Origin: an uncultured Desulfuromonadales bacterium
GTDB taxonomy: Bacteria; Desulfobacterota; Desulfuromonadia; Desulfuromonadales; Geopsychrobacteraceae
Assembly (NCBI GenBank): GCA_945787295.1
Contig: CALZHQ010000018.1
Coordinates: 1-47,308, forward strand
DNA: 47,308 bases
Direction of reading: 5' to 3'
Shown in pieces: positions 31,130-47,308 of the stretch. Both the position numbers and the translations under genes were made by a program. How positions within the stretch are numbered: position 1 is the stretch's first letter; each line of letters opens with the position of its first letter. The notes beneath the pieces were generated by a model. The model was not told the DNA's origin and made no database searches. It was given only the letters and a program-made list of their open reading frames with translations.

Positions 31130-32741
31130 CGGTCTGTTCCCTTAAGATATCGCTCAATGGTTCGCCCGCTTCGAGCTTCGTCACCATCAGGTCGTAAGCA
31201 CTAACAATTGCTGTAATCCGCTCCAGAGTCTGCTGCGGAGTTGAATAGGCATCGCTGGAAAAACTGTTCTGGCAGAGAAACTCGCGCCGGACCCTTTCTG
31301 CGGCAACCATCAACAAGCGGTCACGATCCTGTAAGCCTTCCATCCCGACCACTTCGACCACTTCACGCAGCGCCTCTTCCTGCTGCAGAATCCCCCGGCA
31401 ACGACTCTGCATTTCCGACCAACTCTGATCGACCTGGATTTGAAAATGTTCGGTTGCGCGATTGGCAAACAGAGAATAACTCTGGCCCCAGTTGATCGCA
31501 GGAAAATGTCGCGCGTGTGCCAGACTGGTGTCGAGGAGATAAAAAGCCCCAGCCGCTCGCAGGCAAGCCTGGGTCACCGGTTCGGAAAAATCGGCGCCGG
31601 GTGGCGAGACCGCCAGAATCATGCTCAGCGAACCACGCTTGCCAGCAGCAGTTTCTACCACCCCGGAGCGCTCTATAAAACTGGCCAGCCGCGAGCTAAG
31701 ATAGGTCGGATAACCCTCTTCTCCAGGGATCTCTTCCAGAGAAGAGGAAATCTCGCGCAGCGCCTCGGCCCAGCGGGACAGGCTATCTGCCAGAAACAGC
31801 ACATCGTAGCCCATGTCCCGGTAGTATTCGGCCATCGTCACTGCGGTAAAGATCGAGGATTCCCGCGCCGCCACCGGCATATTCGAAGTGTTCGCGACAA
31901 CGATGGTTCGCTCCAAAAGTGGCCGCCCGTCGGGATCGCGCAGTTCGCCGAACTCACTGAGCAAACCGGCCATCTCGTTGCCCCGCTCACCACAACCGAC
32001 GTAGACCACCACATCGGCGTCGGCGAATTTGGCAATTGCCTGCTCCAGTACGGTCTTGCCGGTTCCAAAGCCCCCGGGGATGATCGCGACGCTGCCCTTC
32101 ATCATCGGAAATAGAAAATCGATACAGCGTTGTCCGGTCAATAAAGGCAGCTCGGCAGGTTGCTTGCTGCCACCGGCCCGCGGCCGCCGTACAGGCCAGT
32201 TTACCCAGGCATATTGCTGCTGACCGTCAACGAGTGTCAGCAACGGTTCGTCCAAACAGATCTGCCCCTGGGCAATGTGGGCAATCTCACCTTCAAGCGT
32301 GGCAAAAATCGGGTGCTGCAGATGACCCTCAGTAATATGGCCAAGAATGTCACCTGAATGGGCAGACTGTCCCGGTTGCATACTCGGGGCAAATTGCCAT
32401 TGCCGTTGTCGATCAAGGGAAGAGAGTTCGTGAACGGTGCCGATAAAATCTCCGCTCTGTTGCTGTAATTGCCGCAGAGGACGTTGCAAACCATCGAAAA
32501 TTCCGCCGAGCAGTCCGGGTCCAAGCATCACCGTCAACGGCGCGCGGGTTCCCTCGGCCGGTTCACCGACACTCAAGCCGTGGGTATCCTCAAAGACCTG
32601 CACCGTGGTGCGCTGCTTTTCCAGGTGGACCACTTCTCCGGAAAGCCGCCCATGGCCGACATAAACCCGATCGTAAAGCTGCAAACCGCGCAGGTCAACG
32701 CAGACGGTTGCACCGGAAATGCTGGTGACCAGCCCTCTCAT
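31116..32741 (-). CDS. atpA: A/V-type ATPase catalytic subunit A
   Basis: This subunit binds and hydrolyses (or makes) ATP in the A3B3 ring. The 541-residue product has Walker A GGFGTGKTV, the Glu-bearing GCGERGNEMAG, NTSNMPVAARE, the SRWAEALREISS segment, and the A-specific insertion (about residues 115-190, GDILGHITEGHLQHP). It is somewhat shorter than most A subunits (about 580). The ATG at 32741 overlaps the F stop; longer in-frame starts read through subunit F and are rejected. Confidence 0.96.
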   Translation of the reverse strand: MRGLVTSISGATVCVDLRGLQLYDRVYVGHGRLSGEVVHLEKQRTTVQVFEDTHGLSVGEPAEGTRAPLTVMLGPGLLGGIFDGLQRPLRQLQQQSGDFIGTVHELSSLDRQRQWQFAPSMQPGQSAHSGDILGHITEGHLQHPIFATLEGEIAHIAQGQICLDEPLLTLVDGQQQYAWVNWPVRRPRAGGSKQPAELPLLTGQRCIDFLFPMMKGSVAIIPGGFGTGKTVLEQAIAKFADADVVVYVGCGERGNEMAGLLSEFGELRDPDGRPLLERTIVVANTSNMPVAARESSIFTAVTMAEYYRDMGYDVLFLADSLSRWAEALREISSSLEEIPGEEGYPTYLSSRLASFIERSGVVETAAGKRGSLSMILAVSPPGADFSEPVTQACLRAAGAFYLLDTSLAHARHFPAINWGQSYSLFANRATEHFQIQVDQSWSEMQSRCRGILQQEEALREVVEVVGMEGLQDRDRLLMVAAERVRREFLCQNSFSSDAYSTPQQTLERITAIVSAYDLMVTKLEAGEPLSDILREQTDAAG

Positions 32742-33052
32742 AGCTGCAACCTCACATGATAACCGAGCGCTCGACGGATCATGCGCTGCAGGGCGTCTTC
32801 CTCGCCGCCCGCTTCCGGAGCCGGCAAGGTGACCAGCATGCCCTGCCAACCTGCCTCCAGTTCAGCTAAACGTTTTTCACCGATGGCCTGAACCAGCCGC
32901 TCATCGAGCACCAGTACGCCAACATCCTTGTCGGCCATCGACGCAATCACTTGTGTCTCGGCCTCAGCTGGCGTGATTATCAACTGCTGCGAACCGGCCA
33001 GGCTGAAGCCATAACGTGCATCTCCCGTGGTGATGAAAATGACCTCGCTCAT
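32738..33052 (-). CDS. atpF: A/V-type ATPase subunit F
   Basis: Subunit F is a Rossmann-like small protein that joins subunit D in the rotor. The 104-residue product begins EVIFITTGDARYGFSLAG and continues with DKDVGVLVLDERL and a C-terminal helical end, the family pattern. It overlaps C upstream and A downstream by four bases each. Confidence 0.9.
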   Translation of the reverse strand: MSEVIFITTGDARYGFSLAGSQQLIITPAEAETQVIASMADKDVGVLVLDERLVQAIGEKRLAELEAGWQGMLVTLPAPEAGGEEDALQRMIRRALGYHVRLQL

Positions 33053-33951
33053 CTGCCCACCGTCCCGGCCGTCTTTCCTGCACTCGAGCCTTCAGCAAAT
33101 AGTTGCAAGCCCTGCTCTCTGGCAGCCAACTGGCAGCGCCACAGGTAGTCGATCACCAGTCCCAGCTGAAGCGGTTCACGCCCCTCTCGCTGCAGACGGG
33201 TTGTCAGCCCTTGCAGCAGATAATCCTCAATGCTCTGATCGGCAGGACGGGTCGATTGCCGGGTGAACTTCTGCATCAGCAGATGGAGCGCAGCATGGTC
33301 CCCACTCTTCCAGATCTTTTCACACTTGATCAGGTCTAGACTCCCGCCCGCCAGAAGTGGTGGCTTCAGTGGCACTTGCCAACGTAAATGCTTCTGCACT
33401 GCCTGCAGGTTACGCATATCGAGCAGATAGAGCAGAAACCGTCGCACCTGGCAAGATTTGCACCGCTTGAGCGCATCCTGCAAATGTCCTCCGAGCAGTG
33501 CCTGTTCAAATCCCCCGGGCCCCTGGCGCAGGTACACTTCCGTCAGATTTCGAAAAACCGGGTACGTTTCTACCAGTAGCTGTTCCAGGCCACTAATTCC
33601 CGCAGCGACCTGTTCAGCAGTTTGTAAAATACTGCGTACTTTTGTCTGGAACAGACTCTTTTGCAGTTGAGTTTTCAGTGATGAATGATCCCCGGCAGCC
33701 AGGAAGCGCAGGGCAACAACCAACAAGCGCAGTTCGAAATATTCAAATATCGGCAGCAGCCTGCGTCGTAGCCGCCGGTCCAGCTGCCGGTACAGCCAGT
33801 GATATTCTGCCAACAGCGCCTGCTGCGGATTCCCTGTTCTGGCACGACGCAGTAACCCACCTGTCGACAGGTCGGCCCGCCGGCATCGGATTCTGGCGTA
33901 AAGGTAATCGCAGGATGCCCCGGCATAGGGGATTTCAAGCAACAGACTCAT
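33049..33951 (-). CDS. atpC: A/V-type ATPase subunit C (AC39-like)
   Basis: Subunit C connects the rotor to the membrane ring. The 300-residue product is helical with the three-fold repeats of AC39-type subunits. Clues are DYLYARIRCRRADLS at the N-terminus, YFELRLLVVALRFLA, and IEDYLLQGL and LVIDYLWRCQLAAREQGL at the end. Sequence identity to known members is low by eye, but the position between E and F is diagnostic. ATG 33951 is used; a GTG two codons upstream is possible. Confidence 0.85.
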   Translation of the reverse strand: MSLLLEIPYAGASCDYLYARIRCRRADLSTGGLLRRARTGNPQQALLAEYHWLYRQLDRRLRRRLLPIFEYFELRLLVVALRFLAAGDHSSLKTQLQKSLFQTKVRSILQTAEQVAAGISGLEQLLVETYPVFRNLTEVYLRQGPGGFEQALLGGHLQDALKRCKSCQVRRFLLYLLDMRNLQAVQKHLRWQVPLKPPLLAGGSLDLIKCEKIWKSGDHAALHLLMQKFTRQSTRPADQSIEDYLLQGLTTRLQREGREPLQLGLVIDYLWRCQLAAREQGLQLFAEGSSAGKTAGTVGR

Positions 33952-34519
33952 GGTCACCTGCCTTGCGCCGCAGTTCGCTCATCAATTCCGGCAGCAGTTC
34001 GCTCCAAAGATGGGCCAAACGTTTTTCCAGGGTATTGACGATCAGGATGCGACCCTCCTCATCCTGAACCTCCACTCCGGCGCTGATTTGATCGTCAAAA
34101 ATTATTTCCGCCTGAGGAAAATGTTCTTCAGCCAGCAAACGGTCACGCAGATTCACCTTAATCTGCTGCCAACTGTAAAGCGGAAGTTCAGCCACCAGAT
34201 TGAGGAACAGAGTGTCCCCTCCGGTCGCCGCCAGCTCTGTGAGCAGCTCATCCGCCAGCTGCCGTAAGTGTTTCGCCAGCTTCTCTTCAGCCTCCAATCG
34301 GCAACGCTGGGCACGCTGTTCGGACTCGGCCTGTTTGGTCGCGTTGAGGGCTAAAACCTGCGCTTCGCAACGGGCCTTCTCGGCCAGTTCATGTCGCCGC
34401 AGGTTGTCGGCCGTCTCAGTCCGCAACCTTTCAGCTTCAGCTTCGACAGTGGCCCAGATCTCTCTGGCCTTGTCATCACCATCCTTGCGTAAGGCCGCTT
34501 CCAGTTCTGACTGTCCCAT
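33935..34519 (-). CDS. atpE: A/V-type ATPase subunit E (peripheral stalk)
   Basis: The 194-residue product has a long N-terminal coiled coil (about residues 3-105; rich in Ala, Glu, Arg, Lys) and a globular C-terminal domain with FDDQISAGVEVQDEEGRI and TLEKRLAHLWSELLPELMSELR, which is the usual E-subunit end. With subunit H it forms the peripheral stalk that holds the head still. It is 6 bases after K and overlaps C. Confidence 0.92.
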   Translation of the reverse strand: MGQSELEAALRKDGDDKAREIWATVEAEAERLRTETADNLRRHELAEKARCEAQVLALNATKQAESEQRAQRCRLEAEEKLAKHLRQLADELLTELAATGGDTLFLNLVAELPLYSWQQIKVNLRDRLLAEEHFPQAEIIFDDQISAGVEVQDEEGRILIVNTLEKRLAHLWSELLPELMSELRRKAGDHESVA

Positions 34520-34525
34520 AAACGC

Positions 34526-34738
34526 CTACAGAACCAGAATCATGATCGCGACAACAAAGCCGAGAATGACCATGGTTTCTGGTATCGCCAGGAGAATGAT
34601 GATCGTTCCAGTCAGTTCGGGCTTTTCTGCCAGAGTACCAGCGCCAGCCGAGCCGATTCGCGATTGGGCCCAGGCAGTCGCCGCAGCGGGGATACCGACG
34701 GCCAGTGCCGCGGCAAAAGCGAGCAGGACTTCTTCCAT
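34526..34738 (-). CDS. atpK: A/V-type ATPase subunit K (proteolipid c-ring)
   Basis: The 70-residue product is a two-helix proteolipid, half the size of duplicated eukaryotic or Enterococcus K. Helix 1 spans about residues 4-35 and helix 2 about 43-70. The ion-carrying Glu54 lies in AIPETMVILG. Gln25 in helix 1 aligns with the sodium-site Gln of Ilyobacter c-subunit, and Thr55 follows the Glu, as Ser does there. This is the pattern of Na+-binding c-rings; coupling ion is therefore inferred as Na+ or both. It lies between I and E. Confidence 0.94.
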   Translation of the reverse strand: MEEVLLAFAAALAVGIPAAATAWAQSRIGSAGAGTLAEKPELTGTIIILLAIPETMVILGFVVAIMILVL

Positions 34739-34752
34739 GATCTGACCTCCTG

Positions 34753-36648
34753 TTACTTGCTGTGGGTTGCCGTTGAGTGATTATTCTTTCTCAGCGGTTT
34801 AAACTGTCGTCCCCCGAATTCAAGAAATTTGCTGAAAAACTCGACATAATGCAGCCGCAGGGCATGCACGGTCGGTGCGAATACGCCGAGCAGCAGGTTG
34901 AAAAAATGCAGCACCCCGGCCACCAGAAATCCAGCCACCAAATCTCCAGTCATCCCGCCCATTTGGTTGGCCACTTGCGCCAGCAGTACCGAGCAGAGAC
35001 CGATCGCCATGATCCGTACGTAGGAAATGATATTACCGAAGCTTTTCAGCAGTTCCAGCGGAGCCAGAAGGCCGCCAGCGACAATCAGAATCGGCAAGAG
35101 CAGCAAAATTGCCAGGAGCAAGGGAACCGTCAGTTCCCAGGGGGAAGGGAACAGATAGCCGAGCAACCAGATCCCGCAAAGAGAGATCAGCAGCAGGTTG
35201 ATAATCTTGACCAGGGCCTCGCGCCGCAATCGCCGCTTGAAGTCATAGCGGATGCCGAGAATCAACCCGAGCAGGACGTGAGCGGTGCCGACCGAAATAG
35301 CAAAAGCGATCATCGGCACAATTGCCTGACTGCGCTCTTGCCAGATCGGTTGCAGATGGAACCAGCGCTCGCCCAGATCGCCGAAGAACTCACCAAACAG
35401 CAAGCCGAACAGAATGGTATAGGCGGCTGAAACACCGAGGATTTTCGCTCCATCGGTCAGGGTTGCACGGCTCGGGTAAAATCTGATCAGCAGGCCGGCA
35501 ATCAGGCCGAGTAACAGTCCATAACCGATATCACCGAGAATCATACCGAACAGCAACGGAAAGAACAGGCCGAGAAAAGGCGTCGGATCGTAAGAGCTGT
35601 ATTTTGGTAGGGGCAAAAGCCGGGCAAAAAGTTCGAACGGTTTAAAATAGAGCGGATTGCGCAACACCACCGGGACCCGATCAAAATCTTCCTGGTGCAA
35701 CTCCATAACACTCAGCACCACCTTGCCAGAAAAGCTCTCGGTTAAATTCTCGCGCAAAACTTCAACATCGGCACTCGGCATCCAGCCATTGACCAGAAAA
35801 CACTGTCGGGTTTCATAAGCCAGTGCACTGGCCTGGTAGAGTGACAAGCGCTCCTCCAGCCAGGACAATGCTTGCCGATAGATCGGCAGCCAGCGGTGGG
35901 CAAAGGTTTCCTGCCGGGCAATCGAATCCTGCAAATTGCTTTCAACCTCTGTCAGCAATTTTTGCAGGGCGATGGTCTTTTCCCGAAACGGCAACTCGGC
36001 CAATTCTGCAGGCAAGGACAATTCCGGGACCTGCTCAGCAGAGAGCATTTCACGCAATGAATCCTCCATACCGAGATCGGTGGTTATCAAACCAACAATG
36101 CTGCCATCTTCGATACTCGCGGTTGACAGGCGACAACGGCCACAGGTCTGTATCTCAAGCAGTTCCTGTAATTTAGAAATTTCATCCGGGTTACGCACTG
36201 TGACGCCAAAAAATGCCAGCCGGGAGTTATCGGCGACATCAGCGACCAAGGGCTCAAGCACGTTCCAGAAGCGAAGATAGCCGGACAGGGTCTCTGCTTC
36301 TTCACGTAAGGCATGACTCTGTTGCTGCCAGTTCCGACAACAGTTGAGATGCTTGTCGACCAGTTCGTTTAACACGTCGATGACCGGTAAGGTCTGCAGG
36401 TAGGTGGTGCGGGTTTCTAGCTCCGGCAGGCAGGCGATTAATTCCTGTATCCGGTTCTGCAGGGCAACGAAAAACTGCTTTTCGCCAACCGCGGTTTCGT
36501 CCAGCAACAGTTCTTTGATGCGGCGTTCATCCTCCTGGCGAACAAAACCACGGATGTCCGCTTCCGGTTGGAAGACCCCCTTACCCCTGAGTAATTCGAG
36601 TGTCTTCAGGAGCAGGTCCTTGGGGCCGACGATTTCAACTTTGGCCAT
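34753..36648 (-). CDS. atpI: A/V-type ATPase subunit I (stator membrane subunit a)
   Basis: Subunit I makes the ion half-channels against the K ring and anchors the peripheral stalks. The 631-residue product has a cytoplasmic N-terminal half with coiled coils and a C-terminal half with about seven or eight membrane helices, including FLGLFFPLLFGMILGDIGYGL and ISYVRIMAIGLCSVLLAQ, where the Arg is the expected channel Arg. ATG 36648 gives the usual MAKVEIVGPK start. A four-codon-longer start at 36660 also exists. It overlaps H. Confidence 0.94.
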   Translation of the reverse strand: MAKVEIVGPKDLLLKTLELLRGKGVFQPEADIRGFVRQEDERRIKELLLDETAVGEKQFFVALQNRIQELIACLPELETRTTYLQTLPVIDVLNELVDKHLNCCRNWQQQSHALREEAETLSGYLRFWNVLEPLVADVADNSRLAFFGVTVRNPDEISKLQELLEIQTCGRCRLSTASIEDGSIVGLITTDLGMEDSLREMLSAEQVPELSLPAELAELPFREKTIALQKLLTEVESNLQDSIARQETFAHRWLPIYRQALSWLEERLSLYQASALAYETRQCFLVNGWMPSADVEVLRENLTESFSGKVVLSVMELHQEDFDRVPVVLRNPLYFKPFELFARLLPLPKYSSYDPTPFLGLFFPLLFGMILGDIGYGLLLGLIAGLLIRFYPSRATLTDGAKILGVSAAYTILFGLLFGEFFGDLGERWFHLQPIWQERSQAIVPMIAFAISVGTAHVLLGLILGIRYDFKRRLRREALVKIINLLLISLCGIWLLGYLFPSPWELTVPLLLAILLLLPILIVAGGLLAPLELLKSFGNIISYVRIMAIGLCSVLLAQVANQMGGMTGDLVAGFLVAGVLHFFNLLLGVFAPTVHALRLHYVEFFSKFLEFGGRQFKPLRKNNHSTATHSK

Positions 36649-36979
36649 TTTGATGATCATCGACTTGCCTCGGCAGTATTTTAACTAGCTGTCGACGTAA
36701 CACCTCCAATAGCTCGTACTGACTGATTTCCTCCAGGCGGCGACAATATTCCATTTCATTTTTCAGCCGAGTTTCAGCCTGCAGCTCGGCCTGCGAAGCA
36801 GCTTGCTCGATAGAGTGCTGATTTTCCTCGCGCAGTTCCTGCTGAACCCGCTCGAAAGCTGTTTCCTGTTCGCGGCGGACTCCAGCAAGCCAGGTCTCTG
36901 CTTTGGCCTCTTCAGTTTGCAGCTGTTGCTCAATCTGATTTTCCAGTTGAATAATGGCATCCAGTATCTGATCAGCCAT
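36635..36979 (-). CDS. atpH: A/V-type ATPase subunit H/G (peripheral-stalk coiled coil)
   Basis: The 114-residue product is almost entirely a charged coiled coil, as in AhaH/G subunits that pair with subunit E. Its identity rests on length, coiled-coil character and position as first gene before subunit I. A GGGGG ribosome site lies 6 bases before the ATG. It is the first gene of the H-I-K-E-C-F-A-B-D operon. Confidence 0.82.
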   Translation of the reverse strand: MADQILDAIIQLENQIEQQLQTEEAKAETWLAGVRREQETAFERVQQELREENQHSIEQAASQAELQAETRLKNEMEYCRRLEEISQYELLEVLRRQLVKILPRQVDDHQNGQS

Positions 36980-37016
36980 ATAGCCCCCGGTGAGACAACC
37001 CTGCTTGTGTTTTTAA

Positions 37017-37025
37017 AGTATAGCA
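37017..37025 (-). promoter_or_regulatory. Extended -10 promoter of the ATPase operon
   Basis: On the minus strand TGC followed by TATACT (5/6) is an extended -10 element; no good -35 is present. It would start about 30 bases before the H gene and lies back-to-back with the antiporter promoter. Confidence 0.45.
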
Positions 37026-37095
37026 AACAGCCGGGAATTTGCGCCCTTCGCGCCAGCGCGACGAGAGTCACTGGGCAGGGAAATGTGTTGAAATA

Positions 37096-37104
37096 TGGTA
37101 AAAT
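37096..37104 (+). promoter_or_regulatory. Extended -10 promoter of the antiporter gene
   Basis: TGG followed by TAAAAT (5/6) is an extended -10 element on the plus strand. The start would be near 37111, some 60 bases before the ATG at 37174. The two divergent promoters are about 75 bases apart, so one regulator could control both. Confidence 0.4.
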
Positions 37105-37173
37105 ATCAGGAGATCGACTGCTTCAATATCTGCCCCGAGGCCCTGACAGGCCCCTGACGGCTGGCAAAACACT

Positions 37174-38382
37174 ATGGATAATATCATTACTGTCATTGCC
37201 CAAATGACTCAGCATAATCCAACCCTCAATCTCTTGATGCTGATGGTTATTGTCTGGACTACCGGAGTCATCTGCCGGATCATCCACCAGCCTCCGGTGC
37301 TGGGCGAATTAACTGCCGGTATTATCTTCGGACCGGCCTTTCTCGGTTTAATCACGCCCAATGAAATGCTCTCGATCCTCTCGGAACTGGGGGTCTTCTT
37401 TCTGATGTTCTACGCCGGGCTGGAAACTAACCCCCTGGACCTGAAGAAGTATCGCCTGCAATCCAGTCTGGTCGGGATTGCCGGGTTCATAATCCCCTTT
37501 GGAGTCTCTTATTTGACCTGTCAGCTGTTCGACTTGCCAAACGTCCAGAGCCTGTTTATTTCTCTCGGCCTGTCGATCACGGCAATCGCCGTCAGCGCCC
37601 GGGTGTTGCATGACCTGGAACTGACCGATCATCATGTCACGCCGGTGATTATCGGTGCATCAATCATTGATGATGTCCTGGCCCTGTCGTTTTTTACCGC
37701 CATTGTCGATCTCGGCACCAATCACGGTTCGATCAATTGGCTTGTATTTGCCTTCACCATGGGCAAGGTCATCCTGTTTTTTGCCCTGGCGATCGGCATT
37801 GGCATCTGGCTCTACCCGAAAATCGGCAGACACTTCTCTTCACGCAGTTCCAAAGGGTTTACCTTCGCCCTGATTATGGCCCTGCTGTTCGGCCTGCTCG
37901 CAGAAATCGCCGGGCTGCACATCATCATCGGTGCCTACATGGCCGGTCTGTTTGTTCGCGAAGGGGTCGTCAGCCAGGAACTGTTGACGAAAATTTCAGA
38001 TCGCTTTGTCTCGATCACCTATGGATTTCTCGGTCCGATTTTCTTTGTCAGCCTTTCTTTTCATGTCACCTTCTCAATTTTTGACAGCCACCTGCTGCTC
38101 ACTCTCTGCCTGCTCCTGGCAGCAATTAGCAGCAAACTGATCGGTGCTGGAGCGGGAGCCCTGGCCGGCGGTCTGAACAGAAAGGAAGCAACCATTGTTG
38201 GTCTGGCGATGAACGGCCGTGGTGCGGTAGAATTGGTCGTCGCATCAATCGGCTTGCAACTCGGGCTGATAAATGATGAGATATTTTCGATCCTGGTGTT
38301 GATCGCTTTCGTGACCACCAGCATGCCACCAATCTCAATGAAGCTGTACCTCGACCGGATCAATTATAATTTCGGAAATTAG
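37174..38382 (+). CDS. CPA2-family cation:proton antiporter
   Basis: The 402-residue product has 11-13 membrane helices and the CPA2/Kef-type core: GELTAGIIFGPAFLGL near residues 48-63, LFFxxLE-like MFYAGLETNPLDLKK, and IIGASIIDDVLAL with the ion-binding Asp-Asp near residue 166. It ends after the last helix with no TrkA-N (RCK) domain, so it is more like NapA-type exchangers than KefB/C. It exchanges Na+ or K+ for H+; which ion is not clear. It is divergent from the A/V-ATPase operon. Confidence 0.9.
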   Translation: MDNIITVIAQMTQHNPTLNLLMLMVIVWTTGVICRIIHQPPVLGELTAGIIFGPAFLGLITPNEMLSILSELGVFFLMFYAGLETNPLDLKKYRLQSSLVGIAGFIIPFGVSYLTCQLFDLPNVQSLFISLGLSITAIAVSARVLHDLELTDHHVTPVIIGASIIDDVLALSFFTAIVDLGTNHGSINWLVFAFTMGKVILFFALAIGIGIWLYPKIGRHFSSRSSKGFTFALIMALLFGLLAEIAGLHIIIGAYMAGLFVREGVVSQELLTKISDRFVSITYGFLGPIFFVSLSFHVTFSIFDSHLLLTLCLLLAAISSKLIGAGAGALAGGLNRKEATIVGLAMNGRGAVELVVASIGLQLGLINDEIFSILVLIAFVTTSMPPISMKLYLDRINYNFGN

Positions 38383-38464
38383 ACAGAATACTTTCTTAAT
38401 GATGAAATGCGACAGTTCGTCAGCTTAAAAAACCAGCATAAACAACCGATTGCAGGAGAAAACC

Positions 38465-39502
38465 ATGCGTATTGAAACCGACCTGAAACTCGGCTTTAAA
38501 GATGTTCTGATCCGCCCGAAGCGTTCAACCCTGAAAAGTCGTGCCCAGGTCAACCTGGAACGGGAATTCACCTTTTTACACAGCAAGCGCAAGTGGCACG
38601 GGACCCCGGTCATTGCTGCTAATATGGATACAGTCGGGACCTTTGAGATTGCCGAAGTTCTCGCCGAATTCGGGCTCCTGACGGCCATTCACAAGCATTA
38701 TACGCTGGAGCAGTGGGACAGTTTCCTCAAAGATCGTGATGATGATATCTACCAGCGGATCATGGTCAGTACCGGAACTGCCGAGGCCGACTTTTCTGTC
38801 ATGCAGACGATTATCGAACGGCACCCGAAGCTGGCTTTTATCTGTATCGATGTAGCCAACGGCTATGCTGAATCCTTTGTCGAATTCGTCAAACAGGTGC
38901 GGGACAGTTTCCCGGATAAAACCATCGTTGCCGGCAATGTGGTCACCGGCGAAATGGTTGAAGAGCTGCTGCTCTCAGGGGCAGATATCGTCAAAGTCGG
39001 CATCGGACCAGGTTCGGTCTGCACCACCCGGGTAAAAACCGGGGTTGGCTACCCGCAACTCTCGGCGGTCATCGAATGTGCCGATGCGGCCCATGGTTTA
39101 GGTGGTCGCATCATTTCTGACGGCGGCTGTGTCTGTGCCGGGGACGTTTCCAAGGCGTTTGGTGGTGGGGCCGATTTTGTCATGCTCGGTGGCATGTTTG
39201 CCGGCCATGATGAAAGTGGCGGCCAACTGGTGCACCGCGACGGCCAGCAATTCAAACTGTTTTACGGCATGAGTTCCTCAACGGCGATGGAAAAACATGC
39301 CGGAGGCATCGCCGAATACCGGGCCTCCGAAGGCAAAACCGTTGAGGTCCCCTACCGAGGGCCGGTCGAGGAAACGGTCAAAGATGTCCTCGGCGGGGTC
39401 CGTTCGACCTGTACTTACGTTGGCGCCGGTGCCTTAAAAGAGTTGACCAAACGAACAACCTTCATCCGCGTGCAGGAACAAGAGAATAAAAAGTTTACTT
39501 GA
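38465..39502 (+). CDS. guaC: GMP reductase
   Basis: GuaC reduces GMP to IMP and ammonia with NADPH (purine salvage). The 345-residue TIM barrel has [11 protein letters not shown] near the N-terminus, [23 protein letters not shown] with the catalytic Cys in [44 protein letters not shown], and the GMP-reductase flap. It lacks the CBS domains of IMP dehydrogenase. ATG 38465 has AGGAG 8 bases upstream; an upstream in-frame start overlaps that site. Confidence 0.96.
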
Positions 39503-40934: not shown

Positions 40935-42188
40935 TCAGAAGTCAGGGAGCGGTGGCGGGGTCTGATCAAAAACGGTAGTGAAAGACCAAACGACGTCCTG
41001 TTCCAAGGTATTGCCAAGAGAATCAGCCATTTCCTTCTTTAAGGTGACCTGATAATTACTGAATGGCAACAGCAACTGATTTGGCGTAAAGGTCAGTCTT
41101 TTCTCGTTCTCGTTATAACTGACAGAGCCGTCTTCAAGCCCGTTTGGTCCGGTCAACTGAATCATGTTGTCGTTCAACAGAGTTTCATCGATTGCTTCAT
41201 CAAAAACAATCCCAACCGTCACATCGACCGATGTTGTATCATTGGCAGGCGGCGTTTTACTCTGCAGTTTAGGCGGCTTCATGTCCCAGGTCGGCAGATT
41301 CTGATCGATCCGCTGGTCATAAACCGTCAACAGGTCGGCATTGAGTTCGGCAGGGTCAATCGCCGCTGTCGTTGTTGTGATCAGAGTTGCTACATCGGCG
41401 ACCTGGGCAGTGTTCCGTTCATTCTCCAGAGCCTGCTTTATCAGTGCGGCCTGTTCCTGAATTTTATCTGTAATCATATAGGCAACTGCCGCCTGCTCAT
41501 TCTCGGCGATCTGTCCACCGAGGTTCTGCTCGATATCGGTTTGCAGGCTACCCAACAGTGCAGCAACCACCCGTGCCGCTTTATGAGCCCGGCTGTATTC
41601 AGCAGCCAGTTGCGGGTCTGTCGCCTCAACACCGCCTGTTGCGTGGGCCAGATAATCTTCGAAAACCGAAACATTATCACTGATACCCAGCTCCGAACGA
41701 ACCTGTAAAACGGCCTGTAATTCGGTATAAGAAGGATTCTTTTCTCGAATGTCTTTTACCAGTTTCGTCAGCGGCGAAATAAACTGCCATTTCCCCTTGG
41801 GAGCTTCCAACCGATAGCTGTCAGTAACGGTTAGACCGGTATCCTCGTCGACAGTCTGACCGGCAATAACTTCCGCCACCACGGGGTAAAGGTCCCCCTC
41901 ACCAGGATTCACTTCAAGTGAATAGGCCCCACCAGCGGTTGATGTCGTGGACGGCTCCCCATTGTCATAGAGACGATTGGCATTGCGATCCAGAAACACT
42001 CGAGCGCCGCGGAGGTAACCATCGGCTACGGTTCCGCTTAAGGTCGTCAGGGAAGCGCTGCCACCACTGGTGTCTGCAGTCTTCGACCCAGAGGTATCTC
42101 CCCCCCCGCCGCCACCGCCGCAAGCGCTGAGTAGTAAAATCGATAGCCCACAACACAACAGCTTCGTTATTTTTGCATAGCTTTTCAT
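40935..42188 (-). CDS. Secreted lipoprotein with a carboxypeptidase-regulatory-like and a Big_5-type Ig domain
   Basis: The 417-residue product has a lipobox (LLLSAC, Cys23) followed by a run of seven Gly, then a short Ser/Thr linker. Next is a domain with LSGTVADGYLRGARVFLDRNANRLYD that resembles surface-protein regulatory-like repeats. The centre is helical. The C-terminus (about residues 305-410), with TVGIVFDEAIDETLLNDNMI, LTFTPNQLLLPFSNYQVTL and WSFTTVFD, fits the Big_5/SbsA Ig-like fold. It begins 13 bases after the large surface-protein frame and is likely its co-transcribed partner under the riboswitches. Confidence 0.85.
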   Translation of the reverse strand: MKSYAKITKLLCCGLSILLLSACGGGGGGGDTSGSKTADTSGGSASLTTLSGTVADGYLRGARVFLDRNANRLYDNGEPSTTSTAGGAYSLEVNPGEGDLYPVVAEVIAGQTVDEDTGLTVTDSYRLEAPKGKWQFISPLTKLVKDIREKNPSYTELQAVLQVRSELGISDNVSVFEDYLAHATGGVEATDPQLAAEYSRAHKAARVVAALLGSLQTDIEQNLGGQIAENEQAAVAYMITDKIQEQAALIKQALENERNTAQVADVATLITTTTAAIDPAELNADLLTVYDQRIDQNLPTWDMKPPKLQSKTPPANDTTSVDVTVGIVFDEAIDETLLNDNMIQLTGPNGLEDGSVSYNENEKRLTFTPNQLLLPFSNYQVTLKKEMADSLGNTLEQDVVWSFTTVFDQTPPPLPDF

Positions 42189-42201: not shown

Positions 42202-44574
42202 TTACTGTTGCGGTTTTGGAATCAGCAACCTAACCGGCTGATCGGTTGGATTCACGTAGATCCAGTAACCTATCCAAGGCGTCAAAACCGCACTCTGATT
42301 TCCAGCTGCACTCTCGAATGCATTGGTATTACCCCAATCGACCCCGAGGTAGTAGTAGATGCCATCGACAATCAAATTGTCACTTGCAGCGTCCAACCAC
42401 AATTGAGGAGTGGAGTTACCATGCTGTACCTGTACATCGGCCAATGAAACATTCCCTTTATACGGATTGGCTATCAGGTTCCAGCCGGGCTGAACAAATA
42501 TTTCGTGATTCGCCGTTGCAATTTCTCCGTATATGTCCAAGGACGGCAAAGTCCTGTTTGAAGTTCGTTTCAGAACATAGCCTTCACCCGCTTTAACAGG
42601 ACCGCCATTATCAAGCTTCTCATAACTCCCCTTTAGCCGTGTCGATGGTCTGTACCGATAGGCCTGAACAACATTAAAAGCCGTCGAGCCATCCAGCAGT
42701 TCACCATCGATATTGCCCGGAGCGCCAATCACATTCTTGCCACTTAACAGCTCAACCGTCGGCCCCTCCAATTCACCAGTCTGAGGATAGCGGCCCAACT
42801 GACTTCCAGCCTGATCTTCCACTAAATAATGGAATTGATGCGCATACGCCGGTCCCAGGCGGGTGATATGACTGTACTTAGCTCCATTGGCGAGAGAGCC
42901 ACTTACCAGCTGCATCTGGTAGCGGTATCCATCGAGAACCAAGAAGACCTTGCGCTGATCAGCAGTGACAGAATCGCGCATATTGATATGGAAACGATAA
43001 TCGAGATCAAGCTTGGGAGAACCAGAAACCAGGTTTCCGCTGTCATCTCCATCATCGACCCGCTCGACACCAGGTAATCCCTTTTCAGTCGGATCAGTAC
43101 TGAGACCGACTGGAATCGCTTCAAAGATCGCCGCAATATTGTGGTGAGCAGAGATATTGTCAAATTGATAACTGGTAACCTTGCCGATTGAGACGTTATC
43201 AACCAGCAGATCGTTTACATAGTAACCAGCCATCGGTGTCAAAGTGTAATTCTGAGAACCACCATAGAGAACTGACGTTTCTCCTTCCGGCGTGATAAAA
43301 CCGCCGTTGCCAGCATTCGCAGTAATCAGCCAGCCAGATTTGCTGCTATCCAGCGGTGCACCATCACGGACATCAGCCACATTATCATTATCGTCATCGC
43401 TATCCGCGTTATTGCCGATTAAATCTCCATCGGTATCGAGCCATTCGCTCCCATCGTTCGGGAAAGCATCTAGATGATCGAGAACACCATCTCCATCTGA
43501 ATCCACCGGTTCATAAGCCAGGACCTCGACAGAGAACAATGGCAGGAAGACGATTGAGTTACCATCACTGGCCCCGATGGCGATAGCTGAGGTGGTTCCA
43601 ACCTGTAGCTCTGTTGGTGCTCCGCTCAACTGACCGGTTGCCGTATCGAATGTGGCCCAGGCCGGCTTATTGGTGATGCTGAAGGTCAGGGTATCGCCAT
43701 CCGGGTCGTTGGCAGCGGGAATAAAGCTGTAGCCACCTTTCGCCATGACCTGTGTCGCCGGAGTACCGCTGATCGTCGGCGATTGGTTGCTGTTAGTCAC
43801 ATTTATCGCCACAGTTTCCGAATCACTCATGGCACCGTCTGTAACGCTGAAAGTAACAGTAAAATCGCCAGCCTGAGTGAAATCCGGAGTCCAGCTGAAA
43901 CGCTGTTGACCTGCATCAAAGCTCGCCCCTTCGGGCAGCCCAAAGACACTGTAGCTCAGCACATCATTCTCGGGATCGGTCGCTGAAATCGTCAGGGCCA
44001 GTTCAACCCCTTCAGTGGCAGACTGTCCACCGATGGCATCCAGAACCGGTGTCTGGTTGACGTTGGCAACATTCAGAACGACTGTTTCCGAGTCGTTGAG
44101 TGATCCATCTGAGACACTGAACGTAATGTTATAGGTACCTGACTGGTCGAGTGTCGGTATCCAGCTCAATGATCTGGTGGATGGGGTAAATACAGCACCA
44201 GGAGGGAGATTCGATGCAGAGTAGGTCAATGGGCTATTATCTGGGTCACTGGCGTTGACAACAAGATTCAGGCTATCCCCCTCGGTCAAACTCTGGTTGC
44301 CGATAGATTCAAGCACCGGTGCCCGATTGACATTGGTCACATTGATCGTAACCGTCTCAGAATCGCTCAGCGAGCCGTCAGTGACAGAGAAAGTCACCGG
44401 GTAGATACGGGTATTTTCTGTCGTCCCGAAAGCTGGGGTCCAATTGAATTGCCGGGTCGCCGGGTTGAAAACCGCACCTGTCGGCAGATCAGCGACACTG
44501 TAGGTCAAACCATCGTTGTCCGGGTCGAAGCCACTGACTGTGAAGCTGAGAGCGGATCCTTCGGTTGACATCAC
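42202..44574 (-). CDS. Surface protein, C-terminal portion (He_PIG repeats, Ca-binding repeats, C-terminal module)
   Basis: This is the downstream frame of one surface protein broken near 44570. It starts inside a cadherin-like repeat (EGSALSFTVSGFDPDNDGLTYS) and contains four such repeats to about residue 335. Next is a thrombospondin-3-type Asp-rich stretch (DSDGDGVLDHLDAFPNDG, DTDGDLIGNNADSDDDNDN) expected to bind Ca2+, a repeat-like domain with GGFITPEGETSVLYGG, and about 300 residues ending in a Trp/Tyr-rich region (GWNLIANPYKGNVS, PWIGYWIYVNP). The ATG at 44574 is not a true start: it lacks a signal peptide and lies in the repeat. A shared gene with 44489-46006 is inferred. Confidence 0.8.
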   Translation of the reverse strand: MMSTEGSALSFTVSGFDPDNDGLTYSVADLPTGAVFNPATRQFNWTPAFGTTENTRIYPVTFSVTDGSLSDSETVTINVTNVNRAPVLESIGNQSLTEGDSLNLVVNASDPDNSPLTYSASNLPPGAVFTPSTRSLSWIPTLDQSGTYNITFSVSDGSLNDSETVVLNVANVNQTPVLDAIGGQSATEGVELALTISATDPENDVLSYSVFGLPEGASFDAGQQRFSWTPDFTQAGDFTVTFSVTDGAMSDSETVAINVTNSNQSPTISGTPATQVMAKGGYSFIPAANDPDGDTLTFSITNKPAWATFDTATGQLSGAPTELQVGTTSAIAIGASDGNSIVFLPLFSVEVLAYEPVDSDGDGVLDHLDAFPNDGSEWLDTDGDLIGNNADSDDDNDNVADVRDGAPLDSSKSGWLITANAGNGGFITPEGETSVLYGGSQNYTLTPMAGYYVNDLLVDNVSIGKVTSYQFDNISAHHNIAAIFEAIPVGLSTDPTEKGLPGVERVDDGDDSGNLVSGSPKLDLDYRFHINMRDSVTADQRKVFLVLDGYRYQMQLVSGSLANGAKYSHITRLGPAYAHQFHYLVEDQAGSQLGRYPQTGELEGPTVELLSGKNVIGAPGNIDGELLDGSTAFNVVQAYRYRPSTRLKGSYEKLDNGGPVKAGEGYVLKRTSNRTLPSLDIYGEIATANHEIFVQPGWNLIANPYKGNVSLADVQVQHGNSTPQLWLDAASDNLIVDGIYYYLGVDWGNTNAFESAAGNQSAVLTPWIGYWIYVNPTDQPVRLLIPKPQQ

Positions 44575-45370
44575 TGATAGTTATCGAAACAACCTCGGAA
44601 TTGCTCAGGCTGCCGTCAGAGACAGAGAAAGTGACATTATAAACGCCTGTCTGCTCATAATCAGGAGTCCAGCTGAAAGTTCCGGTTGCCGGATTAAAGT
44701 TAGCACCGTTTGGCAAATTAACTGCACTGTAGGTCAGATTATCACGGTCGGCATCGGTAGCCGACACTGTGAAAATCAGTTCGCTGTTTTCAGCCCCCAA
44801 CTTGTTACCGATCTGGTCAAAGACTGGAACATGATTCCCAGCAGTTGCGATGATAGTGACAACTTCTGAGTCGCTGGCATTGCCATCACTGACCGTGAAA
44901 GTGACTGAGTAACTGCCAGCCTGACCAGAGTTCGGTGTCCAGTTGAAGGCGCGTGCTGAACTGTTAAAGCTTGCCCCGTTCGGCAGGTTGGTAGCACTGT
45001 AGCTGAGGCTGTCGCTATCTGGATCACTCGCAGTGACGGAGAAATTTAGGGTTTCAGTTTCGACAACAGACTTAGCTCCAATAGCACTAAGGGTTGGAGT
45101 CCGATTTACATTCCCAACTGTGATAGTAACAACCTCAGAATCACTCGCAGAACCATCACTGACAACGAAAGTAACATCATAACTGCCAGCCTGGTCAAAT
45201 CCGGGCGTCCAGCTGAAAGAACCTGATCCGCTATTGAACCCTGCACCGTTTGGCAGGTTGGTTGCGCTGTAGCTTAAGGAATCGCCATCTGCATCGGTCG
45301 CCGACAAAGTAAAACTGCTCGAAGCCCCTTCGAGAATGCTTTTCGAGCCAATGGCTGATAAGACAGGAGC
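43520..45370 (-). repeat. Array of about seven 270-bp cadherin/He_PIG-type repeats
   Basis: Seven copies of an approximately 90-residue unit are readable on the minus strand. Each has an edge motif such as VNR/VNQ plus P-V-L, then EG, SATDADxDxLxYS, NLPxGAxF, FxWTPxxxQ and TFSVSDGSxSDSE. The DNA copies are related but not identical. The last copy (about 43520-43800) is diverged. Such arrays are prone to slippage and mis-assembly. Confidence 0.8.
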
Positions 45371-46006
45371 ACTATTAGAGCCTCCGCCACCACCAGAGCC
45401 TCCGCCGGCCGGACTTTCAACTACATTGGAATAAGTACTTTCATTACCGCTAGCGTCATAGGCGACGACAGCGAAGTAATGAATCTGATCTTCAGGTAAA
45501 CCTGTCACCGAAAATGTGAGTACATTGGCAACATCAATCGGGGAATTCCCTTCGTTAGCTCCTGTTCCAAGCAGAGGAGACTGTGACGAGCCAGTTGCAT
45601 AATAGATTTTATAACCTGTCACGGAACTTGGACTGGCGTCCCAGGACAGAGTGACATTCTTGTCACTTGGTGGCGTCACGACCGGCGGGGTCACAACGGA
45701 CGGGCTGTGCACAACATTGGAATAAACACTTTCACTACCTGCATCATAAGCCGCTACAGCAAAATAATGATCGAGTTCGTCAGGAAGGCCATTGACGGTA
45801 TAAGTCAATACATTTCCCGCATCAATCTCAATCGTACCGGCGTTACCGAGCTGAGTCTGGTCCGTATGATTGTAAATCTTATAACCAGAAACCGTACTCG
45901 GGCTCGCATCCCAGGACAGTGTGACATTCTTTGCCAGTGCCTGCCCTGCGAACAGCAATGAAACAAAGATAATTCCGAATGTAATTCTCATCAGTCTACT
46001 TTTCAT
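44489..46006 (-). CDS. Surface protein, N-terminal portion (signal peptide, two FnIII domains, three repeats; frameshifted)
   Basis: A Sec signal peptide (MKSRLMRITFGIIFVSLLF, cleavage after AGQALA) is followed by two fibronectin type III domains. Both have the same marks: KNVTLSWDASP, YKIY and HYFAV. After a Gly/Ser linker come three He_PIG-type repeats with shared pattern SDGxxSDSEVV. The frame then goes wrong near 44570 and ends at 44489. ATG 46006 has GGGGGA 5-6 bases upstream. An upstream in-frame start at 46081 lies inside the riboswitch terminator hairpin and is rejected. It is secreted, probably adhesive. Confidence 0.82.
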   Translation of the reverse strand: MKSRLMRITFGIIFVSLLFAGQALAKNVTLSWDASPSTVSGYKIYNHTDQTQLGNAGTIEIDAGNVLTYTVNGLPDELDHYFAVAAYDAGSESVYSNVVHSPSVVTPPVVTPPSDKNVTLSWDASPSSVTGYKIYYATGSSQSPLLGTGANEGNSPIDVANVLTFSVTGLPEDQIHYFAVVAYDASGNESTYSNVVESPAGGGSGGGGGSNSAPVLSAIGSKSILEGASSSFTLSATDADGDSLSYSATNLPNGAGFNSGSGSFSWTPGFDQAGSYDVTFVVSDGSASDSEVVTITVGNVNRTPTLSAIGAKSVVETETLNFSVTASDPDSDSLSYSATNLPNGASFNSSARAFNWTPNSGQAGSYSVTFTVSDGNASDSEVVTIIATAGNHVPVFDQIGNKLGAENSELIFTVSATDADRDNLTYSAVNLPNGANFNPATGTFSWTPDYEQTGVYNVTFSVSDGSLSNSEVVSITISDVNRRIRSQLHSQWLRPGQRWFDLQCR

Positions 46007-46040
46007 TATTTCCCCCGACTCCTTTTTCGTTGTTGGGGCT

Positions 46041-46082
46041 AAAAAAATGCGCTCATCTTCTGTTGCCGAAGATGAGCGCATT
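46041..46082 (-). terminator. Expression-platform terminator of the proximal riboswitch
   Basis: A perfect 15-bp stem (46046-46060 with 46068-46082) with a 7-base loop is followed by at least five T on the minus strand. It ends 35 bases before the surface-protein ATG. Its loop and 5' arm (46062-46072) are exactly complementary over 11 bases to the 3' strand of the proximal aptamer (46119-46129). Confidence 0.92.
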
Positions 46083-46114
46083 ATTATCCTGGTTGCAAAA
46101 AGAAAATACGCTAC

Positions 46115-46200
46115 ATTCTCTTCGGCAACCCGGCTGTCCTAAGCTTGAGGACCCGTGGTTTTGCGTCACCAGATTTCTCTGGTTTTGCCCTTTCGGAGAT
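46115..46200 (-). promoter_or_regulatory. Proximal c-di-GMP-I (GEMM-I) riboswitch aptamer
   Basis: On the minus strand the GEMM-I marks occur in order: GGGCAAA, a P2 stem with a GAAA tetraloop (ACCAGA/TCTGGT), GACGCAAA with the intercalating A47, then the P3 receptor side CCACGG, a small hairpin (GTCCT/AGGAC) and GCCGGGTTGCC. G20 (Vc2 numbering) is at 46189 and is G, typical of c-di-GMP binders, not A as in the Geobacter cGAMP group. A short P1 (46196-46200 with 46115-46120) closes it. It lies 110 bases upstream of the surface-protein ATG. Confidence 0.93.
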
Positions 46201-46278
46201 ACTTTTTATTGTTTAATCGTTCCCTATTAACCTCTGATTAAGTCGGACTAAAGCAGCTAATATTTTACCACGAAAACT

Positions 46279-46310
46279 AAAAAACGCTCACCTCGGTGCC
46301 GAGGTGAGCG
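46279..46310 (-). terminator. Expression-platform terminator of the distal riboswitch
   Basis: An 11-bp stem (46285-46295 with 46300-46310) with a 4-base loop is followed by six T on the minus strand. The 5' arm (46298-46306) can pair with aptamer bases 46355-46363 in 8 of 9 positions. It lies between the two aptamers and so would stop transcription before the second one is made. Confidence 0.92.
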
Positions 46311-46351
46311 CTAATTCTACCTGTATAGTCAGGTTGGAAGAAATGCACTGC

Positions 46352-46437
46352 ATCCACTTCGGCAACCCGGCTGTCCTAATTTGAGGATCCGTGGCTTTGC
46401 GTCACCAGATTTCTCTGGTTTTGCCCTTTCGGTTGAT
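46352..46437 (-). promoter_or_regulatory. Distal (upstream) c-di-GMP-I (GEMM-I) riboswitch aptamer
   Basis: This is nearly identical to the proximal aptamer from the GGGCAAA element through GTTGCCGAAG, with a few changes in P3 and its loop. It carries GGGCAAA, a GAAA-capped P2, GACGCAAAG and GCCGGGTTGCC. G20 is at 46425. P1 (46432-46437 with 46352-46357, one mismatch) differs in sequence from the proximal copy but still pairs, which supports the fold. The promoter starts about 20 bases upstream. Confidence 0.93.
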
Positions 46438-46465
46438 AGCTGTTTAGCTACAATGTTTTTTTTGC

Positions 46466-46494
46466 AATCTATCTGCGACGAGTAAAAATGTCAA
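46466..46494 (-). promoter_or_regulatory. Sigma70 promoter of the riboswitch-controlled surface operon
   Basis: On the minus strand a perfect TTGACA (46489-46494) and TAGATT (46466-46471, 4/6) are 17 bases apart. Start would be near 46459, so both aptamers lie in a 450-base leader. A 17-bp inverted repeat TTGAC-N7-GTCAA (46507-46523) is just upstream. Confidence 0.75.
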
Positions 46495-46519
46495 GCGAAA
46501 ATAAACTTGACTTAATATG

Positions 46520-47107
46520 TCAATCATCCAAAATTCCGACTCCCGCCAGCTCTAACATGGTAATCAATTTTATCAAGGGCAGCCCTATCAAGGCATTGTA
46601 GTCTTCTCCAGCCATCTTTTCCATGAGGGCTATTCCCAAACCTTCAATCTTGAATGAGCCGGCACAATCGAGCGGTTTTTCTCGCTGCAAATAATTCCAG
46701 ATTTGCTCTTCTGTCAGCGGCCGGAAAGAAACCGAAAAGGTTGCAAAATCTGTAGTGACCGAGCCGCTACGACTATCGACCAGCGCCAGACCAGTGTAAA
46801 AGGTGTGGGTTTCACCCGCCATCTGCTGCAGTTGCAGGAAGGCTTTTTGCTGGGTTCCAGGTTTACCGATCGCACGTCCCAGATGATCGACAAAAACCTG
46901 ATCGGAGCCGATAATCAAAGCATCTGGATAAGACTCTACCAGACTCTGGGCCTTACCCAGGGCTAAATGTCGCACCAGCAACGAAGGCTCAATATCAGGA
47001 TCGATATGTTCTTCAAATACCGGCGCTGCTGCCGTGAAAGGAATCTGCAACTGCGCCAGCAGTTGTCGACGGTAAGGACTGGTCGAGGCCAGGACAATCT
47101 GTCGCAT
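46520..47107 (-). CDS. yceF: Maf-family nucleotide pyrophosphatase, YceF type
   Basis: Maf proteins hydrolyse non-canonical or modified NTPs; the YceF group prefers 7-methyl-GTP. The 195-residue product has the Maf start IVLASTSPYRRQLL (residues 4-17), VRHLALGKAQSL, the GSDQVFVDHLGRAIGKP metal-site segment, HTFYTGLAL and CAGSFKIEGLGIALM. The spacing and the SDQV plus HCAGSFK-type features fit YceF better than YhdE. The ATG is at 47107. The gene lies upstream of the riboswitch promoter on the same strand; its last bases overlap a 17-bp inverted repeat. Confidence 0.93.
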   Translation of the reverse strand: MRQIVLASTSPYRRQLLAQLQIPFTAAAPVFEEHIDPDIEPSLLVRHLALGKAQSLVESYPDALIIGSDQVFVDHLGRAIGKPGTQQKAFLQLQQMAGETHTFYTGLALVDSRSGSVTTDFATFSVSFRPLTEEQIWNYLQREKPLDCAGSFKIEGLGIALMEKMAGEDYNALIGLPLIKLITMLELAGVGILDD

Positions 47108-47141
47108 AAGCGTCCTTAAGGCTGTTCAGCAGCCAAAGAGA

Positions 47142-47308
47142 TCAGGCAGCAAGACACGGGTTCGGTCTCGGAGCTGATGCTAAGTCATGATTTTCTTCGG
47201 TTGAATGATGCGCGACCGACCATGCGCCAACAGCCAAAAATACCGTCTGTACCGCTTCCAGCAACTGCTCCACGAGTAACTCTTCATCAACTGCGGAGGT
47301 CAAGGATT
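47142..47308 (-). CDS. Possible C-terminal end of an unidentified protein (runs off window)
   Basis: A minus-strand frame is open from the window edge to a TGA at 47142 and gives about 54 residues (VDEELLVEQLLEAVQTVFLA, then a polar tail). The first half looks like an amphipathic helix. No family is recognised. Length alone does not prove coding; it is kept because it is on the same strand and 35 bases upstream of the Maf gene. Confidence 0.35.
   Translation of the reverse strand, partial: SLTSAVDEELLVEQLLEAVQTVFLAVGAWSVAHHSTEENHDLASAPRPNPCLAA

Follow-up and report, generated by a model that had tools for sequence, protein, structure and literature searches.

The c-di-GMP-I riboswitch was the most numerous same-class tandem in one survey, which listed 347 doublets and 12 triplets (PMC9481103), and c-di-GMP tandems have been reported to be enriched in Thermodesulfobacteriota and Deinococcota (PMC12452182). 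Pseudo-cooperative pairs of this kind are expected to respond more steeply or to leak less (PMC9481103). In Bacillus thuringiensis, the triple tandem Bc3-5 precedes cspABCDE, and the reporter constructs were more tightly controlled as the number of c-di-GMP-I units increased; these are ON units, in which binding of c-di-GMP withholds an aptamer strand from the terminator (PMC4759541). The omcAHG operon of Geobacter sulfurreducens, for example, has tandem GEMM-Ib units, and when the cyclase was deleted no RNA was detectable by the second unit; the tandem cGAMP units of Geobacter are backed by RNA-seq evidence (PMC6456294). Two reported units illustrate the two signs. Cd1 is an OFF switch with the order P-A-T-H, in which strands A and T form the antiterminator and the ligand favours termination, and pilM is an ON switch in which a strand of the aptamer itself forms part of the terminator (PMC9262584). 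The adenine/T-box(Tyr) tandem has promoters both upstream of and between its elements (PMC9481103).

The locus described here lies at the right end of the window, that is, the whole stretch of DNA analysed, 47,308 nucleotides from an uncultured Desulfuromonadales bacterium. Geobacter sulfurreducens is presumably related to this bacterium. Like Bc3-5, the locus has several complete c-di-GMP-I units, each with a terminator, ahead of an operon for a cell-surface protein. However, Bc3-5 consists of three ON units whose terminators require the aptamer strand, whereas the window has two units predicted to be OFF and a candidate promoter between them. The published doublets are of the same class, are described as pseudo-cooperative and have multiple expression platforms, but neither this locus nor an OFF/OFF pair whose spacer holds a promoter was found in the part of the survey that was available (PMC9481103). 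The G. sulfurreducens tandem also places two GEMM-I units in series, but its reported ligand is cGAMP and its units are ON, while both units of the window have G20 and a platform of OFF type. Cd1 of Clostridioides difficile shares the P-A-T-H order with the window units but is a single unit in front of a flagellar operon. The adenine/T-box(Tyr) leader has a second promoter between its elements, the transcripts of which meet the second element only, but it responds to two different ligands and its promoters have canonical sequences. A literature search, in which these papers were available in part, found no OFF/OFF c-di-GMP-I tandem and no promoter between tandems of the same class, although such an absence is not proven.

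The tandem architecture itself is already known, because the 347 doublets, the Bc3-5 triple tandem and the Geobacter GEMM-I pairs have been published, and the locus is otherwise ordinary as a riboswitch architecture. The original prediction had implied that a full terminator in each unit was novel; this is not supported, as serial complete c-di-GMP-I units have been published and tested (PMC9481103, PMC6456294, PMC4759541). The points that distinguish the window are the predicted OFF/OFF sign, which runs opposite to that of the tested Bacillus and Geobacter tandems, an apparently old duplication and a possible internal promoter.

Arrangement of the tandem units

On the minus strand, a promoter-like pair of hexamers is followed by aptamer 1, terminator 1, aptamer 2, terminator 2 and an open frame. 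The elements are:

46466..46494, minus strand: candidate upstream promoter P1, read from the sequence, TTGACA-17-TAGATT, 10/12 match to consensus
46436..46451, minus strand: short hairpin (TAGCT..AGCTA type) immediately 5' of aptamer 1, predicted fold
46357..46434, minus strand: aptamer 1, c-di-GMP-I clan (RF03167), cmscan 65.8 bits, E 1.8e-13
46279..46312, minus strand: intrinsic terminator 1 with U-run, 13-pair stem and T-run, antiterminator partner CCTCGGCACC at 46304-46295
46120..46198, minus strand: aptamer 2, c-di-GMP-I clan (RF03167), cmscan 70.2 bits, E 1e-14
46041..46082, minus strand: intrinsic terminator 2 with U-run, 15-pair stem and T-run, antiterminator partner UCUUCGGCAAC at 46072-46062

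The original prediction had named two GEMM-I aptamers, two intrinsic terminators and a good promoter at 46494-46466, and all five elements were recovered with coordinates that agree within a few bases. A cmscan search of Rfam placed the aptamers at 46434-46357 and 46198-46120 on the minus strand, both above the gathering score of RF03167 (59 bits), which assigns them to the c-di-GMP-I clan. The best family of the clan for both copies was RF03167 (c-di-GMP-I-GGC) rather than RF01051, the family that had been anticipated; there were three lower-scoring matches from the same clan besides. The orthologous pair in genome G001 had RF01051 scores of 73.3 and 67.6. The possibility that one copy is decayed was dropped, since both exceed the gathering cut-off and both have counterparts in other leaders. 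There is no open reading frame of 80 or more residues between the units, and each of the two complete units has its own expression platform.

A 1.8-kb region contained six terminator-like sites, compared with a shuffled mean of 1.7 (sd 1.4), and terminators 1 and 2 had the most pairs of the six (13 and 15). The same region had five promoter-like sites, P1 included, compared with 2.1 in shuffles. For comparison, 20 leaders were assembled, consisting of the window and 19 tandems chosen by eye among the matches listed in a search of 44 genomes of the family. A hexamer pair (TTG at -35,.A...T at -10, at least 8/12) was present 5' of aptamer 1 at a varying distance in 16 of the 20, which is a raw count without a chance level. 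By eye, and uncounted, a TAGC..GCTA hairpin 5' of aptamer 1 recurs in several relatives, and in several relatives aptamer 2 is preceded by a different hairpin (GACAA..TTGTC, GACAG..CTGTC). A plasmid origin was considered and dropped, as positions 45000-47308 had no megablast match in the plasmid collection ("near" mode only).

Ligand of the aptamers

Position 20 is G and position 47 is A in both copies, and by eye the C of GUUGCC occupies the place of C92 in both; this numbering is our assumption, transferred by way of an alignment with Vc2. G20, A47 and C92 are Vc2 positions thought to be important for binding, according to the paper on Bc1 (PMC11218506), and A at position 20 is reported to accompany cGAMP aptamers (PMC9481103). 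Because G20 and A47 occur in both copies, the two computed aptamers are predicted to bind c-di-GMP.

The possibility was considered that the ligand is not c-di-GMP but cGAMP or the ligand of the GGC variant. The best Rfam family is RF03167, and we take the "GGC" in its name to stand for positions 20/47/92. However, position 47 is A in both copies and not the G (after GACGC) of the RF03167 consensus; membership of the GGC variant was dropped for this reason, and the copies are filed as clan members only. Many Geobacter GEMM-I riboswitches are reported to prefer cGAMP (PMC6456294). In both window copies, however, position 20 is G, whereas it is A20 that goes with cGAMP (PMC9481103), and cGAMP sensing was dropped on the basis of this residue. 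A ligand other than c-di-GMP is very improbable, and the two gates are discussed below as responding to c-di-GMP.

Predicted antiterminator pairing and sign

The last bases of the aptamer, GUUGCCGAAG, complement the 5' arm and loop of the terminator of the same unit. The strands concerned, called strand A, are:

46356..46366, minus strand: strand A of unit 1 (GUUGCCGAAGU), at the 3' end of the aptamer, can pair with the 5' arm and loop of terminator 1
46119..46129, minus strand: strand A of unit 2 (GUUGCCGAAGA), complementary to 46072-46062 without a mismatch

In the element names of the class I structure, we take the 3' strand of the aptamer to comprise the base of P3, the C of the binding site and the 3' strand of P1. 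The computed duplex of strand A had an energy of -21.9 kcal/mol in unit 1, with 8 of 10 ungapped pairs, and of -23.4 kcal/mol in unit 2, with all ten; in neither unit were any of 200 shuffles as good.

The complementarity is conserved among the leaders. In 34 of the 39 scored units, at most two of 200 shuffled terminator arms were as good as the native one. The units that missed this mark were the second units of L050 (3 of 200) and L053 (27), the first unit of L059 (36) and both units of L067 (21 and 58). The pairs between strands A and T were kept at a mean of 9.39 of 10 in 38 units, compared with 7.01 for shuffled T, the largest of 200 shuffled means being 7.39. Unit 2 of L057, which runs off its contig, was left out of both counts and unit 2 of L067, which has another platform, out of the ten-pair count, while the terminator arm was set by hand for two units (L057 unit 1 and L062 unit 2). 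At pair 4, A-T replaces G-C in three units; in the tree, two of these (L063 and L065) are sisters. L059 unit 1 has only 7 of the 10 pairs. Leaders with a single unit (n=12) had 6 to 9 of 10 pairs, with the anchor mostly one base off, three unanchored and one without a reachable terminator, and these counts serve as evidence for neither side.

Nearest-neighbour folding, which takes no account of ligand or tertiary structure, was applied to nascent and full-length transcripts. When the 5' arm and loop of the terminator had emerged and the 3' arm was incomplete, strand A paired downstream with mean probabilities of 0.61 in unit 1 and 0.86 in unit 2. Terminators 1 and 2 both form in the full-length minimum free energy structure. 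Strand A of unit 2 pairs (0.90) with a local GCAACC before the terminator arm emerges and again at full length, which would leave terminator 2 free without ligand and thus counts against an OFF switch. This hairpin was considered as a conserved part of the unit and dropped, since by eye the partner is absent in L052 and L062. The conserved TTCGGCAA could be kept partly as a stable, GNRA-capped tip of the terminator.

Each terminator of the window is a hairpin complete in itself and lies 54-59 nt downstream of the anchor of strand A. The arrangement that marks Cd1 as an OFF switch, in which the 3' strand of the aptamer and the 5' arm of the terminator can form an antiterminator, was found in both units, by computation only. 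Because the 3' strand of each aptamer complements the 5' arm and loop of its own terminator, we infer that gates 1 and 2 are both OFF switches.

The possibility was also considered that the two gates are ON switches in series, an AND-like arrangement in which the surface protein would be made at high c-di-GMP. Adhesins are commonly induced by c-di-GMP, which was counted in favour of this alternative. The closest tested tandem, Bacillus Bc3-5, is ON and likewise stands before surface proteins (PMC4759541), and the tandem GEMM-Ib units of Geobacter are reported to be ON for cGAMP (PMC6456294). However, the terminators of Bc4 and pilM are described as requiring the aptamer's own 3' strand, whereas those of the window are self-contained and their 5' arms can pair with the aptamer strand. 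Moreover, an ON-type platform of this family is exemplified by unit 2 of L067, and it is absent from the window units. Two ON gates are unlikely, and the OFF assignment is the one carried forward.

Conservation and history of the duplication

Tandems occur in at least 18 of the 44 genomes of the family, a lower bound because the tandems were chosen among the matches listed. Matches to RF03167 with E <=0.001 were found in 41 of the 44 genomes, 39 being over the cut-off.

A tree was computed for the 40 units of the 20 tandems, aptamer and platform together. It unites the first units of 15 tandems (84/73; 14 of these at 99/96, starred) and separates them from the second units of the same tandems. 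The two units of L055 are sisters, as are those of L057, and L056 and L059 belong to this mixed group too. Five changes of the labels "unit 1" and "unit 2" are needed across the 20 tandems (at least three by starred branches), compared with a shuffled mean of 13.7; with five changes, a single origin for all 20 tandems is unsupported. For the window's clade, the tree suggests a single duplication that copied aptamer and platform together before the genomes split. Outside this clade, we infer separate duplication or homogenisation.

That the unit was duplicated as aptamer plus platform, as had been proposed, is supported by the tree built on both parts and by the 254-base units of L082, two of which look identical by eye. 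L082 is a triple tandem with a 254-base period at positions 731-1323 in G094, another genome of the order. By eye, its units 1 and 2 look identical, terminator and spacer included, which suggests that they were duplicated recently or that the assembly produced the repeat. The two copies in the window's clade appear to have been distinct since one duplication, while at other loci the copies are nearest kin or identical. The locus is a conserved system for asking why bacteria retain the same riboswitch twice in series.

A mixed tandem was observed in L067 (G025:C45), with units at 2567-2488 and 2383-2300 on the minus strand. Unit 1 has G20 and a weak platform resembling the OFF type (21 of 200 shuffles paired as well), and unit 2 has A20 (cGAMP-type) and a terminator formed from its own aptamer strand (ON-type). 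If this reading is true, the gene would be on at low c-di-GMP and high cGAMP. A mixed pair of this kind is absent from Table 2 of PMC9481103, the part of that survey that was compared. A third GEMM-I aptamer with A20 lies at about 1316-1230 of L067 on the minus strand, between the downstream gene and a second FN3-type gene.

A candidate promoter between the units

A further promoter-like element lies between the two gates:

46262..46270, minus strand: candidate internal promoter P2, extended -10 TGG-TAAAAT just 3' of terminator 1, proposed from sequence only

The pattern TGNTANNNT occurs within 36 nt of the start of the T-run in 11 of the 20 leaders, and in nine of these the offset is 12-14. 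The nine leaders have TGGTAAAAT three times, TGGTAGAAT, TGCTATAAT, TGATAAAAT, TGGTATATT, TGGTACTAT and TGGTAAACT. A clade of 14 leaders was picked after the sequences had been seen (L055, L056, L057, L059, L066 and L067 were excluded). In this clade TGNTANNNT is present in 11 of 14 leaders, compared with 2.07 on average in 1000 shuffles, the highest of which gave 7, but since the clade was picked post hoc and the leaders are related, the shuffles do not give a clean probability. Five control stretches had the pattern in 0, 0, 1, 0 and 0 of the 14 leaders. In a cruder test with a weight matrix, the promoter weights of which were entered from general recall, the stretch that follows terminator 1 fell below 0.1 in 8 of 20 leaders and the one that follows terminator 2 in 0 of 19.

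A good -35 hexamer for P2 was not found; by eye, the 3' arm of terminator 1 offers GTGAGC, which matches at 3/6 positions. At the fixed place, 11 of the 20 leaders lack a full match, which is missing in L052 (4/5), L053, L055-L059, L066 and L067 and shifted in L050 and L054. The spacer profile ranks the P2 9-mer with the dozen best-conserved stretches for the window and L061; the exact 9-mer does not rank so for L062 and L063. Given the want of a good -35, the post hoc choice of clade, the kinship of the leaders and the spacer profile of L062 and L063, the chance that the element after terminator 1 is a promoter is about even.

The alternative is a plain serial OFF pair that has no internal promoter, with the TGGTAAAAT element a relic or a chance occurrence. 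The poor -35 and the missing or shifted match in 11 of 20 leaders argue for it; the fixed offset in nine leaders, with changes at tolerated -10 positions, and the controls, with 0/14 in four stretches and 1/14 in the fifth, argue against it. We put it just short of an even chance. It is a narrower form of the explanation that we favour, a serial OFF pair that P2 may also feed, and is compatible with the OFF part of it.

Proposed mechanism

The explanation that we favour, and hold to be probable, is that two complete c-di-GMP-I riboswitches of OFF type act in series on transcripts from P1, and that P2 may feed gate 2 only. The two riboswitches would fold separately and act in turn on P1 transcripts of an operon made up of a gene for a secreted FN3/Ig-repeat protein and a lipoprotein gene. 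When the ligand is absent, the 3' strand of the aptamer would open and pair with the emerging 5' arm and loop of the terminator, allowing read-through. When c-di-GMP is bound, strand A would be locked in the aptamer, the terminator would form and transcription would stop. High c-di-GMP would thus shut the operon twice, and a steeper fall and less leak may be expected in the pseudo-cooperative manner.

The statement in the original prediction that transcription must pass two gates in series stands in so far as two complete units lie in line; if P2 is active, it is true only of transcripts that start at P1. An active P2 would mean that gate 1 misses some transcripts. Transcripts from P2, for which the chances are about equal either way, would skip gate 1, so that gate 2 would be obligatory and gate 1 would apply to P1 transcripts only. 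A real promoter in the spacer would mean that "two gates in series" calls for a check on internal starts before any claim of steepness.

Taken as a whole, a two-promoter, two-gate switch kept since one old duplication, in which P1 transcripts meet both OFF gates and P2 transcripts the second only, is offered tentatively, as a possibility with the balance somewhat against it. If it is true, c-di-GMP would determine how strongly a secreted, adhesin-like operon is expressed and, in effect, which promoter it uses; the two gates would have been kept as distinct parts and not as simple copies.

Neighbouring genes

The genes that flank the tandem are:

46520..47107, minus strand: maf, upstream neighbour with conserved synteny, outside the switch (Pfam Maf)
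44489..46006, minus strand: first open frame of the regulated gene, 505 aa (Pfam fn3, He_PIG/cadherin-like repeats)
42202..44574, minus strand: second open frame of 790 aa, read in a different frame and with similar repeats (Pfam He_PIG etc.)
40935..42188, minus strand: lipoprotein-like open reading frame with a Big_5 domain (Pfam Big_5)

By eye, the N-terminus of the 505-residue frame resembles a signal peptide. Two overlapping frames on the minus strand (505 and 790 aa, overlap 44489-44574) divide the FN3/Ig-repeat protein between them. Several relatives next to tandems are single frames of 695-1268 aa, and some are shorter (280 in G015, 316 in G004, 347 in G025). The split in the window may stem from a mutation, a sequencing error or a frameshift. 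The lipoprotein-like frame at 40935..42188 is probably in the same operon; by eye, 9 of the 19 other tandem loci have such a frame downstream, and several of the 19 stop short of that position.

Inspection by eye, the window included, placed an open reading frame with a Maf-like N-terminus upstream of 15 of the 20 tandems and an FN3-type secreted protein downstream of 16. Both flank 14 of the 20 leaders, some contigs ending too early. The tandems of L050 (G002) and L054 (G016) precede prepilin-like genes with an N_methyl motif and not an FN3 protein. Since their units group with the window's clade, the tandem may have moved as a module in these two loci.

Further into the window, positions 29804-38382 carry genes of a V/A-type ATPase (ATP-synt_ab, V_ATPase_I) and then, on the opposite strand, a Na+/H+ exchanger, and a gene of the IMP dehydrogenase / GMP reductase family lies at 38450-39502.
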